Origin: Acidobacteriota bacterium
GTDB taxonomy: Bacteria; Acidobacteriota; Blastocatellia; Chloracidobacteriales; JADJPF01
Assembly: GCA_016213785.1 (NCBI GenBank)
Contig: JACQZQ010000035.1
Coordinates: 1-64,000 of the forward strand
Length of the DNA: 64,000 nucleotides
Direction of reading: 5' to 3'
Position 1 is the first letter of the stretch, and the number at the start of each line of letters is the position of its first letter. This document shows, piece by piece, positions 36,180-44,370 of this stretch. Both the position numbers and the translations under genes were made by a program. The notes below the pieces were generated by a model that did no database searches, was not told where the DNA came from, and saw only the letters and a list, made by a program, of their open reading frames with translations.

Positions 36180-36641
36180 TTAAGATTCGTTTTCTAGGCT
36201 ATTAGCATTGGAACTAAGCAAAGCTCTAACTTTTATAAGAATTTTGCCCAATTTGTTTAGCCCTGTCCCGTCCTTACCACATCCCCAATAATAATCAATA
36301 GGCGAATTTTCTACTAAGTTTTGATCGCCTGTTGATAAAAGAATTGTTTTGATTTCTTTGTGGGATTGGAATTTTTTTAGAACAGCGTTGTACATAATTT
36401 CATCCTTAACCTCTTCCCAATCTGACCTAATTGGCATTTCTCGACTACGGCCAAGAGTTGCTGCTATTTTGGGTTTGGGAGCCTTTCTAATTTTTTGTTG
36501 ATAGGCGTTATCAAAAAATTTTTGGGCTTGAAAATAATGTTCAACTGTTGACCACCATAGGTTTTGCATTTCTATTCCATGAGGTGAAAAATTGCTAAAA
36601 CACCCATATTTGTCTGAAGGGATGTAAAAATATATTGTCAT
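36180..36641 (-). CDS. NADAR domain protein (YbiA-like N-glycosidase family)
   Basis: This 153-residue protein is a single NADAR domain. Motifs: CFSNFSPHGIEM near the start, WWSTVEHYFQAQKF, and WGCGKDGTGLNKLGKIL near the end. E. coli YbiA acts as an N-glycosidase on riboflavin-pathway intermediates, and other NADAR proteins remove ADP-ribose from nucleic acid. Which of these applies cannot be told from sequence. It is 63 bases away from, and divergent to, a large kinase-ATPase fusion. No DarT-like ADP-ribosyltransferase is visible nearby. Confidence 0.88.
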   Translation of the reverse strand: MTIYFYIPSDKYGCFSNFSPHGIEMQNLWWSTVEHYFQAQKFFDNAYQQKIRKAPKPKIAATLGRSREMPIRSDWEEVKDEIMYNAVLKKFQSHKEIKTILLSTGDQNLVENSPIDYYWGCGKDGTGLNKLGKILIKVRALLSSNANSLENES

Positions 36642-36704: not shown

Positions 36705-39700
36705 ATGGCTAGCCAATCAGAATTTAAGGGTACATCGCGATTTATTATCCAGCGTCAGCTTGGCTCTGGAGGCTTTGGCAATGTTTACGAGGTTTTTGAT
36801 CAAGAACGTAAAACTGTTGTAGCCTTAAAAACCCTTCACCAAACCGATGCAGAATCACTTTATAGATTTAAGCAGGAGTTTCGCGTTCTTGCCGATATTC
36901 ATCACCCTAACTTAGTTTCTCTTTATGAATTAATGTCTGATGGTGAACAATGGTTCTTTACTATGGAACTTGTTCAAGGAGTGAATTTTTTAGAATATGT
37001 TTGGGGTAGAAGCAGAGAAGATCTTGATTATATAGGTAATGCAAAGACTGTAAGAGCCAGTGATCTTGAGCAAATTATTACTCAAAAAGTAGCTGAACCT
37101 ACTTTGAAAATTGCTCGCGAGGCCGCCATAACAAATAAACGAATTGAAAAAGATACTTATGATATTGTAGCGCAAAAAATTTTAGGTGATTCTTCAGATT
37201 CTCATTTTTTAGAATTTTCCCTAGATGAAACTCGCCTAAGAGGTGCATTAAGACAGCTTGCAGAAGGAATATCTGTACTACACGACGCAGGAAAATTACA
37301 TAGGGACTTAAAACCTTCTAATGTGCTTGTTACACATCTAGGTAGAGTAGTAATCCTAGATCTAGGTTTAGCTGTGGAAGTTGCGGCTAAAGGTACTCAT
37401 GAGAGTATGCATATTGTTGGTACTCCTGCTTATATGTCTCCTGAACAAGGCACAAACCTAGCTGTTTCAAAGGCTTCTGACTGGTACAGTATAGGAGTAA
37501 TACTTTATGAAGCATTGACAGGCAGAGTTCCTTTTACAGGGTCAATGGTTGATATTTTAGTAAAACGACAAAGTAGCGAACCACCTCCGCCAAGCGAACT
37601 AGTTAAAGGAGTTCCTGCCGATCTAAATAGGTTATGCCAAGATTTACTTTATAGAGATCCTAAACTTCGCCCTACAGGCAAAGCTGTTTTACAAAAACTA
37701 GGAAAAAATGAACAAGATATTACTTTTCCTACTGTTCCTACCTCAAAAATTTCTTCTTTAAGCGGGCGAGGAAATTTACTAAAAGACTTAAAAGACGCTT
37801 TCTATAATGTTAGAGCAGGAACGGCTACAACCGTTTATTTAGAAGGTTATGCAGGAATTGGTAAAACTGCTTTAGTGAATTATTTTTTAGAAGGTCTTCA
37901 GCAAGCCGAGCAGAACTTAGTAGTTTTAACAGGACGTTGTTATGGTCAAGAAGATGTTCCCTATAAAGCTCTTGATAGCGTTATAGACGCTTTAAGCCAA
38001 TACTTAAAACGCTTGCCTCCTATGGAAGTAGAAGCTTTGCTTCCTCGTGATATGTCTGCTCTAGCTCGCCTTTTTCCAGTGCTTAAACAAATTTTAACAA
38101 TTGCTTCTAGTAGGCAGAGAGTATTAGAAATACCTAATGCACAAGAATTAAGGCGACGAGCGTCAGCAGCACTTAGAGAGCTTTTAGCTAGGCTTTCAGA
38201 TAAACGAGACTTAGTTATTTTTATTGATGATTTACAATGGGGTGATACTGATAGCGGAGTACTACTTAGTGAGTTACTTCGCCCTCCTGAACCACCAGCA
38301 ATGCTTTTAATTGCTAGCTATCGTAGCGAAGACCAAGATACTAGCCCAATACTTAATCAATTATTTGATTCTCAATCTGTAATAAGGCAATCTACTGATA
38401 CACGGAAAATTATAGTTAGCGAGCTTTCTTTAGAGGAATCAAGACAGCTTGCCTTAAATCTTTTAGGCAAAGGACATAAAAATGCTAAAACACTCTCTGA
38501 AATAATTGCTAAAGAATCTCAAGGTATTCCTTTGCTAATTGATGAGTTGGTTAGATATTCTCTTACAGATGATCGCGTAGTCAAAGATCTAGAACAAATG
38601 ACTAATGTTGATAGTAGCCGTTATGATATAAATTATTCTTTAATAAATGACGTAATTCAACGTAGGGTAATAAAGTTACCTCCAGATGCAAGACGGCTAC
38701 TTGAATTAATAGCCGCAGCAGGCCAACCAATAGAACGCTCTATAATAAAGAAATCTGCTCAGCTAGAAAATGAAGAACAAAGCGCTTTTTCTGCTCTTCG
38801 TGTTGGTCGTTTAATTAGAGTTGTTACTAGCGGAGGGAAAGAAAAAGTCGTTTGTTACCATGATGGTATTCAAAAAACAATTATTTCTCGTTTAGATACA
38901 AAAAAACTTGTAGAGTACCATCGCCGCCTAGCTGTAGCTTTAGAAGAGACTTCCCCAAAAGATGCAAAAAGCCTAGCTACTCATTTTCGTATTGCTGGAG
39001 ATATTCCTAAAGCACTTGACTATACAATAATAGCAGCAGAACAAGCCGTAAAAGCCTTAGCTTTTGATAATGCAGCACGTCTTTATAAAATTGCCCTTGA
39101 GTTAAACCCAGGTGATAAACAACATGAAATAGAGATTAAATTAGGTGAAACCCTAGCTAATGCTGGTCGTGGCGAAGAATCAGCATGTGCCTATCTTGCA
39201 GCAACTAAAGGGCTAGACTCAACTCAAGCTATAGAACTGCAACGACGTGCTGCTGAACAATTCCTAATAAATGGTTATATGGATGAAGGTCTAGCAGTAC
39301 TTCGTGAAGTACTAGGAAAAGTGAAAATAACTCTTCCTGAAACTACTAGAGCCGCTTTTCTCTCGTTTTTATTTCAACGCCTTCAGCTTTGGATTAGAGG
39401 TCTAAACTTTACGGAAAGACAAGTTGGTGAAATTCCTAGTAGCGAATTATTACGTATAGATGTTTGTTGGTCTGCTACTGTTGGCCTTGCTTATGTTAAT
39501 AGCAAGCGGGCAATAGATTTTCAAGCCCGCCACCTTTTACTTGCGCTTAATGCAGGAGAACCCTACCGCGTAGCCCGTGCCTTAGCCTTAGAAGCCGCAT
39601 ATTCAGCTAAAGATGGCGGACGTAAACGAGATCGCACGGCAACCATTTGCCATCAAGCTATGGTGCTTGCTAAACAAATCAATCATCCTCATACTAATGC

Positions 39701-40616
39701 ACTTGCTATATTAGAATTAGGTTTTTCTGCCTATATGGAAGGCAATTGGACTAAAGCTTACGAAGCTTTTAATAAAGGCGAACAAATCCTTAGAGAGCAA
39801 TGCACCAATGTAACTTGGGAACTAGACACTAAACATTACTTTTATATGCGTACTCTACTTTTCCTTGGGCGACTTACTGAACTATTAGAACAGCGCTCCA
39901 GTTTATTAAAAGAAGCTCAAGAACGAGGAGATTTATTTGTAACAACAAACTTGCGAATTTGGTCTCATATGATTTTTCTAGCATCTGATAATCCTAAAGA
40001 AGCCAAGAAAGATGTTATTGATGCTATGGCAGGTTGGGCAAGTAAGAGCTTTGACTTACAACATTACTGGAGTCTTTACACACGCTCAGAAATAGATTTT
40101 TATTGTAATGATTTTGAAAGTGCCTGGTTACGCATAGAAGAAACTTGGCCTAAACTAAATAATTCATTCTTTCTACTTACTCAGATTATTGCTATTGAAT
40201 CCTTACATTTAAGAGCAAGAGCTTGTTTAGGTTTAGCCTCAAAACTAGATAAAGACCATGAAGGAAATATAAATAGACTCCTTTCTATTGCCGAACGCGA
40301 TGCAAAAAGAATAGAGCGAGAAAAAATGTATTGGGGTAATGCCTTAGCTAATTTAGTTAAAGCGGGAATTGCTATAGTAAAAGATCAAGTAAAAACTGCT
40401 GCTAAGTATTTAATTGAAGCAGAAGTTGATTTTGAAAATACAAAAATGGAACTCTACCTAATGGCTACTCGCTATCGTAGAGGTCAATTAATTTCAGGAG
40501 AACAAGGCCGACAAATAATGCAAATATCAGTAGATTGGCTATTAAACCAAAAAATTAAAGAGCCTGAAAAAATATTTAATATGCTTGCTCCTGGTAAATG
40601 GCCTAAGCAAAATTAA
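36705..40616 (+). CDS. Ser/Thr kinase - AAA/STAND ATPase - TPR fusion regulator
   Basis: This 1303-residue protein starts with a Hanks kinase domain (about 10-335): GSGGFGNVY, K42, HRDLKPSN with D201, DLG instead of DFG at 219-221, and GTPAYMSPEQ. About 70 extra residues (about 101-172) are inserted between the hinge region and the helix before the catalytic loop. A predicted AAA/STAND ATPase follows (SGRGNLLKDL, Walker A GYAGIGKT at 381-388, Walker B LVIFIDDLQWGD near 503-514). A winged-helix-like part and a long TPR-like helical tail to the end come after. This architecture is common in Myxococcota and Acidobacteriota. It has no membrane helix. Confidence 0.93.
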   Translation: MASQSEFKGTSRFIIQRQLGSGGFGNVYEVFDQERKTVVALKTLHQTDAESLYRFKQEFRVLADIHHPNLVSLYELMSDGEQWFFTMELVQGVNFLEYVWGRSREDLDYIGNAKTVRASDLEQIITQKVAEPTLKIAREAAITNKRIEKDTYDIVAQKILGDSSDSHFLEFSLDETRLRGALRQLAEGISVLHDAGKLHRDLKPSNVLVTHLGRVVILDLGLAVEVAAKGTHESMHIVGTPAYMSPEQGTNLAVSKASDWYSIGVILYEALTGRVPFTGSMVDILVKRQSSEPPPPSELVKGVPADLNRLCQDLLYRDPKLRPTGKAVLQKLGKNEQDITFPTVPTSKISSLSGRGNLLKDLKDAFYNVRAGTATTVYLEGYAGIGKTALVNYFLEGLQQAEQNLVVLTGRCYGQEDVPYKALDSVIDALSQYLKRLPPMEVEALLPRDMSALARLFPVLKQILTIASSRQRVLEIPNAQELRRRASAALRELLARLSDKRDLVIFIDDLQWGDTDSGVLLSELLRPPEPPAMLLIASYRSEDQDTSPILNQLFDSQSVIRQSTDTRKIIVSELSLEESRQLALNLLGKGHKNAKTLSEIIAKESQGIPLLIDELVRYSLTDDRVVKDLEQMTNVDSSRYDINYSLINDVIQRRVIKLPPDARRLLELIAAAGQPIERSIIKKSAQLENEEQSAFSALRVGRLIRVVTSGGKEKVVCYHDGIQKTIISRLDTKKLVEYHRRLAVALEETSPKDAKSLATHFRIAGDIPKALDYTIIAAEQAVKALAFDNAARLYKIALELNPGDKQHEIEIKLGETLANAGRGEESACAYLAATKGLDSTQAIELQRRAAEQFLINGYMDEGLAVLREVLGKVKITLPETTRAAFLSFLFQRLQLWIRGLNFTERQVGEIPSSELLRIDVCWSATVGLAYVNSKRAIDFQARHLLLALNAGEPYRVARALALEAAYSAKDGGRKRDRTATICHQAMVLAKQINHPHTNALAILELGFSAYMEGNWTKAYEAFNKGEQILREQCTNVTWELDTKHYFYMRTLLFLGRLTELLEQRSSLLKEAQERGDLFVTTNLRIWSHMIFLASDNPKEAKKDVIDAMAGWASKSFDLQHYWSLYTRSEIDFYCNDFESAWLRIEETWPKLNNSFFLLTQIIAIESLHLRARACLGLASKLDKDHEGNINRLLSIAERDAKRIEREKMYWGNALANLVKAGIAIVKDQVKTAAKYLIEAEVDFENTKMELYLMATRYRRGQLISGEQGRQIMQISVDWLLNQKIKEPEKIFNMLAPGKWPKQN

Positions 40617-42056: not shown

Positions 42057-42986
42057 ATGCTAAAAGTAGGTTTACTAGTTGGTAGAGAAAGATCTTTTCC
42101 TAATGCGTTGATTGAAGAAATAAATAAACGCGATCAAGGCGTAGTTGCAGAGTATGTCAAAGTAGGAGAGATTGCTAGTAATGCTGATTGTCCTTACAAA
42201 GTAATTGTTGATCGTATATCTCATGAAGTAGCCTTTTATCAAACTTATTTAAAGACTGCATCGCTTAATGCAACTGTAGTAATTAATAACCCTTTTTGGA
42301 GAATGGCAGATGATAAATTCTTTGGGACTGCTTTAGTAGAAAAATTAGGCATTGCAATACCTAAAACTATTGTTTTGCCAATGCATAGCTACCCTGAAAG
42401 TATTACATCTGAAAGTTTAATCAACTTAAAGTATCCGTTAGAGTGGAAAGAGGTCTTAAATTATATTGGACTACCAGCGATTCTAAAACCTCATTGGGGA
42501 GGAGGTTGGAAAGCTGTTAATAAAGTCTGCTCTCTAGAAGAATTACTCTTTTTTTATAATAAATCAGAGGAACTTTGTATGATGTTACAAGAATATATTG
42601 ATTGGGAACAATATGTTCGTTGTATTTGTATTGGAAAAACAGAAATATTAATTACTAATTGGGATCCTAGAAAGCCACACTTTGAACGTTATACAGGTGT
42701 AGACCAAAATTTAGATCCAAAACTTACCGAGAGAATTAGACAAGACGCTGTAAAAATTAATGAGGCACTTGGATATGATATGAATACCATTGAATTTGCT
42801 ATTCGCAGTGGTGTTCCATATGCAATTGATTTTATGAATTCTGCTCCTGATTTTGATATTACTTCATTAACAGAAAAATATTTTCCCTGGGTAGTTGATA
42901 AAATGGCAAATCTTATTATTGGTTCTGCAAAAGAAACTGTTAATAAAAAAATAGAATATCGTTGGAATAAATTAATGAAAATTTAG
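42057..42986 (+). CDS. ATP-grasp ligase of unknown substrate (RimK-like)
   Basis: This 309-residue protein has an N-terminal alpha/beta domain (about 1-105) and a central and C-terminal ATP-grasp fold. Visible motifs are the ATP lysine K144 in AILKPHWGGGWKAV, LQEYIDWEQYVRC, and a metal-binding segment NTIEFAIRSGVPYAIDFMNSAPDFD (about 243-267), with Glu, Asp and Asn in the expected places. Such enzymes join a carboxylate to an amine or thiol through an acyl phosphate. A second ATP-grasp gene starts 37 bases downstream, so the two may act in sequence on one product. Neither substrate nor product can be named. Confidence 0.82.
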   Translation: MLKVGLLVGRERSFPNALIEEINKRDQGVVAEYVKVGEIASNADCPYKVIVDRISHEVAFYQTYLKTASLNATVVINNPFWRMADDKFFGTALVEKLGIAIPKTIVLPMHSYPESITSESLINLKYPLEWKEVLNYIGLPAILKPHWGGGWKAVNKVCSLEELLFFYNKSEELCMMLQEYIDWEQYVRCICIGKTEILITNWDPRKPHFERYTGVDQNLDPKLTERIRQDAVKINEALGYDMNTIEFAIRSGVPYAIDFMNSAPDFDITSLTEKYFPWVVDKMANLIIGSAKETVNKKIEYRWNKLMKI

Positions 42987-43023
42987 AGTGAGAATATAAA
43001 ATTTAAAGTGAAAAGGAATTGTT

Positions 43024-44370
43024 ATGATTAAGAAAGCTATTGATTATTATCATGAGTTGCTTGTAAAAAATGAATACTTAACTACAACACAACAAATATT
43101 ACAAGAAGCAACAGAAAATCGTCACTTAGCTTTTGGAAAGCGGCCTGTTTGTAGTGTATTAAGACCTTATTTTATTGATAGTAACACATATCAGTTTGTT
43201 AATAATGCTGCTCAGTTAGTTAGTTCTGGTGTAAGTTTATTAGGGCAAAGATTACTTGCTGACGATATATTACGAAAAGAGTTAGATCTAACTCCTGAAG
43301 AAGAAATAATAATTAAATTTGATCACAAATATGGTGCTCCTGATGTTAGTGGAAGACTAGATGGATTTTTAAGTCCTAAAGGAGAGTTTAATTTTGTTGA
43401 ATATAATGCAGAAAGCCCAGGAGGCTTAGCTTATGGTGATGAATTAACTGATACATTTAATAAAATGCCTATAATGCAAAAGTTTAGTGAAACTTATAGT
43501 CTAAAAACATTTGCAATTAGAAAAAAAGTTTTTGAAACATTATTGTTAGCTTATAAAAACTGGGGTGGGATAGGTTTACCAAACATTGCTATTGTTGACT
43601 GGAATGGTGTAAGCACTTATGGAGAGTTTTTGCTTTCAAAAGAATGTTTTGAGCAAAATGGCTGTAAAGTAAAGATAGTTGATCCTGATGAATTAGAATA
43701 TAAAAATAATAATCTATATGCTGAAGATTTTAGAGTAGATCTAATTTATAAACGTGTAATTATAGGAGAACTATTAAATAAATTTGGTCTAAATCATCCT
43801 ATAATGGAAGCAGCAAAAAATAATGATGTTTGTATTGCAAATGCTTTTCAAGTACAAATGTTATACAAAAAAAGCTGCTTTGCTTTACTAAGTGACCCTA
43901 TTTATCATTCAATTTATCCTAAAAAAATTGTAACTGCTTTATTAAAACATATTCCTTGGACAAGAAAAGTACGAGAGTGTAAAACTATATATCAAAATAA
44001 TAATATAGATTTAGTAGAGTTTATTGTAAATAATCAAGATAAATTAGTTTTAAAACCAAATGGAGAGTATGGCGGTAAAGGCGTAGTGTTAGGTTGGGAA
44101 TCTACTAGTGAAGAGTGGAAAGAAACATTAAAAATAGCTTTATCTAAATCATATATTGTTCAAGAAAAAGTTCCATTAGGCACAGAAGTATATCCAAGCA
44201 TAATTGATGGAAAATTGAGTTTTGATGAAAGATTTTTAGATTTAGATCCTTATGTTTGGAATGGAAATCAAATAGAAGGTTGTGGAATACGTCTTTCTAA
44301 ACTAGCTTTACTAAATGTTACTGCTGGAGGTGGCTCTGCTACTCCAATGTTTATTATTGATAATAAATAA
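43024..44370 (+). CDS. Circularly permuted ATP-grasp-like protein
   Basis: This 448-residue protein has FNFVEYNAESPGG (VEYN at about 125-128) in the N-terminal half and the ATP lysine K344 in KLVLKPNGEYGGKG in the C-terminal half, followed by SYIVQEKVPLG. The order of the metal-binding and ATP-lysine motifs is that of circularly permuted ATP-grasp enzymes, as in the synthetase half of glutathionylspermidine synthase, where VEYNADTP-type sequence occurs. The end AGGGSATPMFIID is also typical. It is 37 bases downstream of the other ATP-grasp gene, with AAAAGGA before the ATG. Substrate unknown. Confidence 0.8.
   Translation: MIKKAIDYYHELLVKNEYLTTTQQILQEATENRHLAFGKRPVCSVLRPYFIDSNTYQFVNNAAQLVSSGVSLLGQRLLADDILRKELDLTPEEEIIIKFDHKYGAPDVSGRLDGFLSPKGEFNFVEYNAESPGGLAYGDELTDTFNKMPIMQKFSETYSLKTFAIRKKVFETLLLAYKNWGGIGLPNIAIVDWNGVSTYGEFLLSKECFEQNGCKVKIVDPDELEYKNNNLYAEDFRVDLIYKRVIIGELLNKFGLNHPIMEAAKNNDVCIANAFQVQMLYKKSCFALLSDPIYHSIYPKKIVTALLKHIPWTRKVRECKTIYQNNNIDLVEFIVNNQDKLVLKPNGEYGGKGVVLGWESTSEEWKETLKIALSKSYIVQEKVPLGTEVYPSIIDGKLSFDERFLDLDPYVWNGNQIEGCGIRLSKLALLNVTAGGGSATPMFIIDNK

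Follow-up and report, generated by a model that had tools for sequence, protein, structure and literature searches.

A Tandem Pair of Standard and Circularly Permuted ATP-Grasp Genes in Acidobacteriota as a Putative Non-Ribosomal Amide-Ligase Module

Results

The Gene Pair and Its Surroundings

The window (the whole 64,000-nucleotide stretch of DNA from an Acidobacteriota bacterium that was analysed) contains two co-directional open reading frames, which encode proteins of 309 and 448 residues and are separated by 37 bp, the same spacing as given in an earlier note on this DNA. Genes of the ORF1 and ORF2 types are referred to as RIM and CP, respectively. The features of the locus are as follows, with positions numbered from the start of the window.

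42057..42986, + strand: ORF1 ('RIM'), open frame with an ATG start, encoding a 309-residue RimK-like ATP-grasp ligase
42486..42509, + strand: predicted nucleotide-binding lysine and glycine loop of ORF1, K144-P-H-W-G-G-G-W151 (conservation in alignment A2)
42828..42839, + strand: predicted metal-binding motif of ORF1, D258-F-M-N261 (D-x-x-N; conservation in alignment A2)
42987..43023, + strand: 37-bp gap between ORF1 and ORF2, with a Shine-Dalgarno-like AAGGA ahead of the ORF2 start (read from the sequence)
43024..44370, + strand: ORF2 ('CP'), open frame with an ATG start, encoding a 448-residue circularly permuted ATP-grasp protein, GspS/YgiC-like
43354..43407, + strand: R111-x-D113 and E126-Y-N128 of ORF2, predicted carboxylate/Mg site (aligned with Gss and YgiC)
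44053..44076, + strand: predicted ATP lysine and glycine loop of ORF2, K344-P-N-G-E-Y-G-G351 (K344 aligns with Gss K533)
44290..44292, + strand: R423 of ORF2, equivalent of Gss R598

Comparison with a genome of the same genus (G001) gave a dN of 0.086 and a dS of 0.63 for ORF1, and a dN of 0.096 and a dS of 0.81 for ORF2; both genes are under purifying selection. A promoter and terminator scan of the locus was uninformative, with 12 promoter-like sites compared to 13.8 expected, and therefore the designation of the pair as an operon is based on spacing, strand, and conservation.

The aroK and aroA genes lie directly downstream of the pair on the opposite strand, and so the earlier description of a locus with no other biosynthetic genes around was inexact. 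A functional tie of the pair to these adjoining shikimate genes was considered and rejected, because when the window and 53 loci were compared, the flanking aroK and yggS-like genes recurred only in G001 and G003, both members of the window's family. Elsewhere in the window, a gene for a stand-alone NADAR-domain protein (36183-36641; PF08719, 142 bits) is divergent from a gene encoding a 1303-residue protein kinase fused with an AAA_16 ATPase (36705-40616).

ORF1, a Predicted RimK-like ATP-Grasp Ligase

No Pfam match was found for ORF1. Like RimK and LysX, it matches TIGR00768 (RimK family alpha-L-glutamate ligase; 46.2 bits, residues 4-266) and TIGR02144 (LysX; 39 bits, residues 6-267) over nearly its full length, but unlike these enzymes it is far under the curated cut-offs of 143.4 and 276 bits, and therefore does not reach the curated score for the RimK family. 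A profile of the RIM alignment A2 (27 rows) matched the ATP-grasp part of the D-Ala-D-Ala ligase 3r23 with E=1.6e-6.

Residues K144, P145, and G148-W151 of ORF1 were invariant in 27 of the 27 rows of A2, as were E246, D258, and N261; the roles of K144, the GGGW loop, E246, D258, and N261 are presumed from other ATP-grasp enzymes. The usual ATP-grasp metal motif is E-x-N. The lysine, glycine loop, and acidic/Asn ligands of the superfamily are all present in ORF1, with the last in the form of D-x-x-N, which is one residue longer than E-x-N. This form was found in 66 of 66 RIM ORFs (65 as ID..N and one as VDFTN), and as a sequence character it may define a separate RIM family. The nucleotide and metal motifs that had been called intact are indeed conserved in both proteins, although the metal motif of ORF1 is not canonical.

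ORF2, a Predicted Circularly Permuted ATP-Grasp Ligase

The match of ORF2 to PF14403 (CP_ATPgrasp_2) was 29.3 bits, under the cut-off of 32, and that to PF04174 was 22.9 bits, just short of the cut-off of 23.1. A 27-row profile built on ORF2 matched PDB 3n6x, named 'putative glutathionylspermidine synthase', with E=1.9e-11 over positions 40-442 of 443. The profiles built from relatives (the matches to 3r23 and 3n6x) therefore make the ATP-grasp assignments of ORF1 and ORF2 firmer, and from these matches the two folds are predicted to be a standard and a circularly permuted ATP-grasp, respectively, in agreement with the first reading of the locus. AlphaFold models from a two-row alignment (window and L032) had pLDDT values of 40.7 for ORF1 and 32.6 for ORF2.

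To compare active sites, 63 CP ORFs were aligned with E. coli Gss and YgiC. It was found that R111, D113, E126, N128, K283, K344, and R423 of ORF2 fall on R316, D318, E330, N332, K498, K533, and R598 of Gss, seven residues that we take to be catalytic; the YgiC counterparts of the first four are R100, D102, E115, and N117. The VEYN-type motif that had been pointed out in one of the two proteins is V125-E126-Y127-N128 of ORF2. Each of the seven Gss-type residues is kept in 59 to 62 of the 63 CP ORFs: R111 in 60, D113 in 62, E126 in 59, N128 in 60, a lysine at the K344 position in 59, and an arginine at the R423 position in 60. ORF2 thus has the R-x-D, the E-x-N, the two lysines, and the C-terminal arginine of GspS/YgiC-type proteins in the same permuted order.

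In spite of the shared motif order and the seven aligned residues, the similarity of ORF2 to Gss and YgiC is very low (A1 against YgiC: 94 columns, E=7.9e-4, probability 24.8%), and the columns R47, N431, G435, and G437 of ORF2 are found in neither Gss nor YgiC. The annotation of YgiC is peptide--spermidine ligase, and it is cited as a peptide-spermidine ligase in a passage of PMC12568646.

Occurrence of RIM, CP, and GCS2 within the Class

The distribution of the genes was evaluated in 58 genomes, namely that of the window and 57 of its class. RIM was found in 51 of the 58 genomes, CP in 49, and a third ligase gene, GCS2, in 47; all 49 genomes with CP and all 47 genomes with GCS2 also had RIM. 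These numbers depend on the following exclusions. The RIM count omits a fragment in G051; a partial row in G030 was retained. The CP count omits 18 rows weaker than E=1e-50 (at most 40 bits), which lowers a raw count of 51 to 49 because G030 and G041, which have RIM and lack CP, pass only by weak matches (32-34 bits). The GCS2 count omits 17 low rows (G017 and G025 at 162-171 bits and the other 15 at 35 bits or less). The two GCS2 proteins tested against PRK13515 (carboxylate-amine ligase, YbdK-like) scored 550 and 561 bits, over the cut-off of 371, and GCS2 is also over the cut-off of TIGR02050, which places it in a YbdK/GshA-related family.

Tandem RIM-to-CP pairs with a gap of less than 2 kb numbered 31 and were present in 24 genomes (24 of the 49 relatives holding both genes); the order RIM-CP-GCS2 was found as 20 trios in 20 genomes. 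Many CP paralogues are solitary. In the neighbourhood comparison across Acidobacteriota that had been proposed, the pair recurs, and it is not an orphan as first described: besides its conservation through the class, a second, paralogous pair exists in its own genome, and it stands in tandem with GCS2 in 20 of the 58 genomes. The homologues, which might never have occurred together, were found together in every CP genome of the relatives and in 11 of 21 outside the class.

Six of the seven genomes lacking RIM are from a single family (f8), and so the co-occurrence of RIM and CP rests on few independent events; the absence from the seventh genome, G044, could be an assembly gap, because its congener G040 has all three genes in tandem. 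GCS2 was absent genome-wide from all four genomes of the window's family (G000-G003), which are the only RIM genomes without GCS2. Because two of these genomes are 96-97% complete, the absence looks real.

Occurrence beyond the Class

Among 297 genomes sampled across the phylum, CP was found in 53 and RIM in 88 at an E-value of at most 1e-20. Outside the class, CP was present in 21 genomes and RIM in 56, with both genes in 11, RIM alone in 45, and CP alone in 10; the CP-only genomes belong to families f11 and f70 and gave lower scores. Gene neighbourhoods were compared in 40 out-of-class regions, hand-picked from the RIM and CP matches in this sample. GCS2 adjoins RIM in 13 of the 15 CP-less RIM loci examined (L176-L190, all 15 from genomes without CP), and a gene of one recurring cluster lies near RIM in 6 of the 15. 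The single tested member of this cluster is an M29 peptidase (PF02073, 50.9 bits), the recurring neighbour clusters of the relatives having been annotated in part. The RIM-CP-GCS2 order was also found outside the class in two loci (L196 and L197). Because RIM-GCS2 often occurs without CP outside the class, RIM and GCS2 look like the core, to which CP may have been added.

No relatives of RIM and only distant relatives of CP were found on plasmids, no relatives of ORF1 or ORF2 in viral contigs, and no relatives of ORF1 in a phage collection, these collections being poor samples of soil bacteria. Plasmid neighbourhoods were inspected for 8 of 11 CP records, two of which (the Streptomyces records L218 and L221) have no gene table. 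On a Selenomonas plasmid, the distant CP relative adjoins genes for a GCS2-family protein and a MATE transporter, and on a Sinorhizobium plasmid, it is beside a biotin-carboxylase-like gene (ATP-grasp-type by annotation) and an MFS transporter gene. On a Pantoea agglomerans plasmid (L223), an ATP-grasp gene lies a few genes away from the distant CP relative. The Mesorhizobium, Streptomyces L224, and Paracoccus plasmid loci had no annotated ligase gene directly beside CP. The L223 context resembles a natural-product cluster; besides this ATP-grasp gene, it includes ectB and genes encoding a TauD/TfdA-family dioxygenase and a ThiF-family enzyme.

Two Paralogous Pairs and Their Trees

The window's genome contains two paralogous RIM-CP pairs, one per clade. 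In trees of RIM (61 rows, over 300 bits) and CP (60 rows, over 350 bits, by a quick method), the window pair falls outside the class-wide, GCS2-linked clade and within the same six-row clade (support 98/98 and 100), and the two trees are largely congruent on this clade. The CP tree flagged an odd composition in the window row and two of its neighbours. None of the 11 RIM genes in the wider clade of the window has GCS2 in its fetched flank, which in L098, L110, and L202 is truncated downstream of CP. Because GCS2 is missing from both the window's family and the flanks of its clade, a three-ligase pathway need not apply to the window pair.

A genome from outside the class, G081, carries a pair of the window's clade at the matching place in both trees, with its CP meeting the contig end. 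These matching positions suggest transfer as a unit, and a pair of the window type may have moved to or from G081. In two genomes (G004 and G005), a RIM belonging to the window's clade occurs without a CP from it, and in family f7, six CP genes of the clade have no RIM alongside; these unpaired genes argue against strict co-inheritance. In five f7 loci (L087, L102, L104, L106, and L107), this CP is near a conserved gene pair that, judged by eye, resembles a nucleotidyltransferase and a GHMP-type kinase.

Discussion

We think it likely that ORF1 and ORF2 form a non-ribosomal amide-ligase module, in which a short peptide or peptidyl-amine would be made by successive ligations. The sequential ligations suggested in the earlier note thus stand as the likely chemistry. 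With ATP and Mg2+, each enzyme would phosphorylate a carboxylate, which an amine would then attack. The RimK-like ORF1 would be responsible for one peptide or isopeptide bond, and ORF2 would form a second bond between the carboxylate of the growing peptide and an amine or amino acid. In the set most common in the class, the third ligase GCS2 would contribute a gamma-glutamyl-type bond, and the outcome would be a non-ribosomal peptide or peptidyl-amine of small size, with two to four units. The window's family would work without GCS2, having retained RIM-CP as two paralogous pairs, and we infer that GCS2 was lost from this family rather than never present.

The acyl-phosphate chemistry, the order of the steps, and the size and nature of the product are likewise inferred. 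A small peptide or peptidyl-amine is indicated by the partner ligase, by the M29-type peptidase gene nearby in some relatives, and by the plasmid CP contexts with a ligase and a transporter. The sequence matches of ORF1 and ORF2 point to no substrate; full-length matches to enzymes of known substrate were sought for both proteins, as had been proposed, and none extended over nearly the full length.

One alternative is a glutathione- or glutathionylspermidine-like thiol pathway, in which GCS2 would make gamma-glutamylcysteine, RIM would add a third residue, and CP would add an amine. The membership of GCS2 in a family that includes YbdK and GshA relatives, the Gss active-site set in CP, and the name given to PDB 3n6x are consistent with such a pathway, whereas none of the four genomes of the window's family has GCS2, and spermidine specificity is not a property that can be read from sequence. 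The GSH-S_ATP domain was found in 7 of the 58 genomes, in each case over the cut-off but as a partial match (best 52.8 bits), a result that replacement would explain as well as absence would; in the window's own genome (G000), the PF02955 match of 26.9 bits (cut-off 23) covers positions 26-106 of 175 and lies in an 880-residue frame. Furthermore, BshC, of bacillithiol synthesis, is present in 51 of the 58 genomes, including six of the seven that lack RIM, and so a thiol buffer is probably already in place. Because of the partial GSH-S_ATP matches and the wide presence of BshC, canonical glutathione is unlikely as the product, and we regard the thiol pathway as a whole as unlikely.

It is also improbable that RIM and CP serve separate pathways, with RIM working with GCS2, the CP paralogues having diverse substrates, and the adjacency being mainly an operon convenience. 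This would account for RIM-GCS2 without CP elsewhere in the phylum, for the absence of RIM from 10 of the 21 CP genomes outside the class, for the CP paralogues that often stand alone, and for the f7 members of the window's CP clade, which have no adjacent RIM. It fits poorly with the 31 tandem pairs, with the presence of RIM in each of the 49 relatives that have CP, and with the shared clade of the window pair in both trees, a pair that may have been transferred to or from G081 as a unit.

A protein- or peptide-tagging system resembling the Anbu/Alpha-E/transglutaminase/ATP-grasp operons is very improbable, because although in 6 of the 15 loci from outside the class a gene of the M29-type peptidase cluster lies close to RIM-GCS2, none of the 9 window neighbours had a Pfam match (E up to 1e-5) to a proteasome-like peptidase such as Anbu, to Alpha-E, or to transglutaminase, and ORF2 is below the Pfam cut-off for CP_ATPgrasp_2.

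The amide-ligase module that we favour has counterparts among known systems. Iyer et al. (2009) reportedly described amidoligase clusters, including the Anbu/Alpha-E type, that unite ATP-grasp, circularly permuted ATP-grasp, and glutamine-synthetase-like ligases with peptidases. RIM-CP-GCS2 shares with them the combination of ligases with peptidases, and the best reading of RIM-CP(-GCS2) is that it is a variant of such clusters, differing from the Anbu/Alpha-E operons in the window neighbours noted above. The clusters are cited in a passage of PMC5666114. No description of the RIM-CP-GCS2 set or of Acidobacteriota ATP-grasp pairs was found among the papers listed in the literature searches, most subscription journals being outside their scope.

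A second comparison is with the fungal Cp1B (PDB 9cjn), the ATP-grasp enzyme of E-64 biosynthesis, which gave a weak match to the ORF2 profile (E=0.0066). According to the part of PMC12568646 that deals with it, Cp1B couples trans-epoxysuccinic acid with an amino acid during the synthesis of E-64 and is a stand-alone ligase that works with a second amide-forming enzyme to give a short non-ribosomal product. The two systems differ in that the partner of Cp1B, Cp1D, belongs to the adenylating (ANL-family) amide bond synthetases and not to the ATP-grasp or GCS2 ligases, and in that the Cp1B pathway begins with an oxygenase.

The presence of the ligases in most of the genomes examined from the class (RIM in 51 and GCS2 in 47 of 58) suggests a molecule of general use and not an occasional natural product. 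Acidobacteriota abound in soil, and few of their metabolites have been characterised. It is conceivable, although we hold this only tentatively, that many of them use up to three stand-alone ligases, which as a set differ from GshA and GshB, to produce an undescribed metabolite of low molecular weight that is a functional counterpart of glutathione or glutathionylspermidine, and that the window's lineage would do so free of GCS2 and with two paralogous RIM-CP pairs. RIM, CP, and GCS2 are candidate stand-alone amide-bond catalysts. Three carriers of the trio (G006-G008) have assemblies of only two contigs, as would be expected of cultivated strains such as those of Chloracidobacterium, a genus that NCBI assigns to Blastocatellia, and so gene removal combined with metabolomics may be feasible in them.

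A longer, distant RIM-like family (418-466 residues), with the motifs KPYDGGAW and IDFANxCPD, was seen in other members of the phylum (L191-L195); of its five loci, one has GCS2 in the vicinity.
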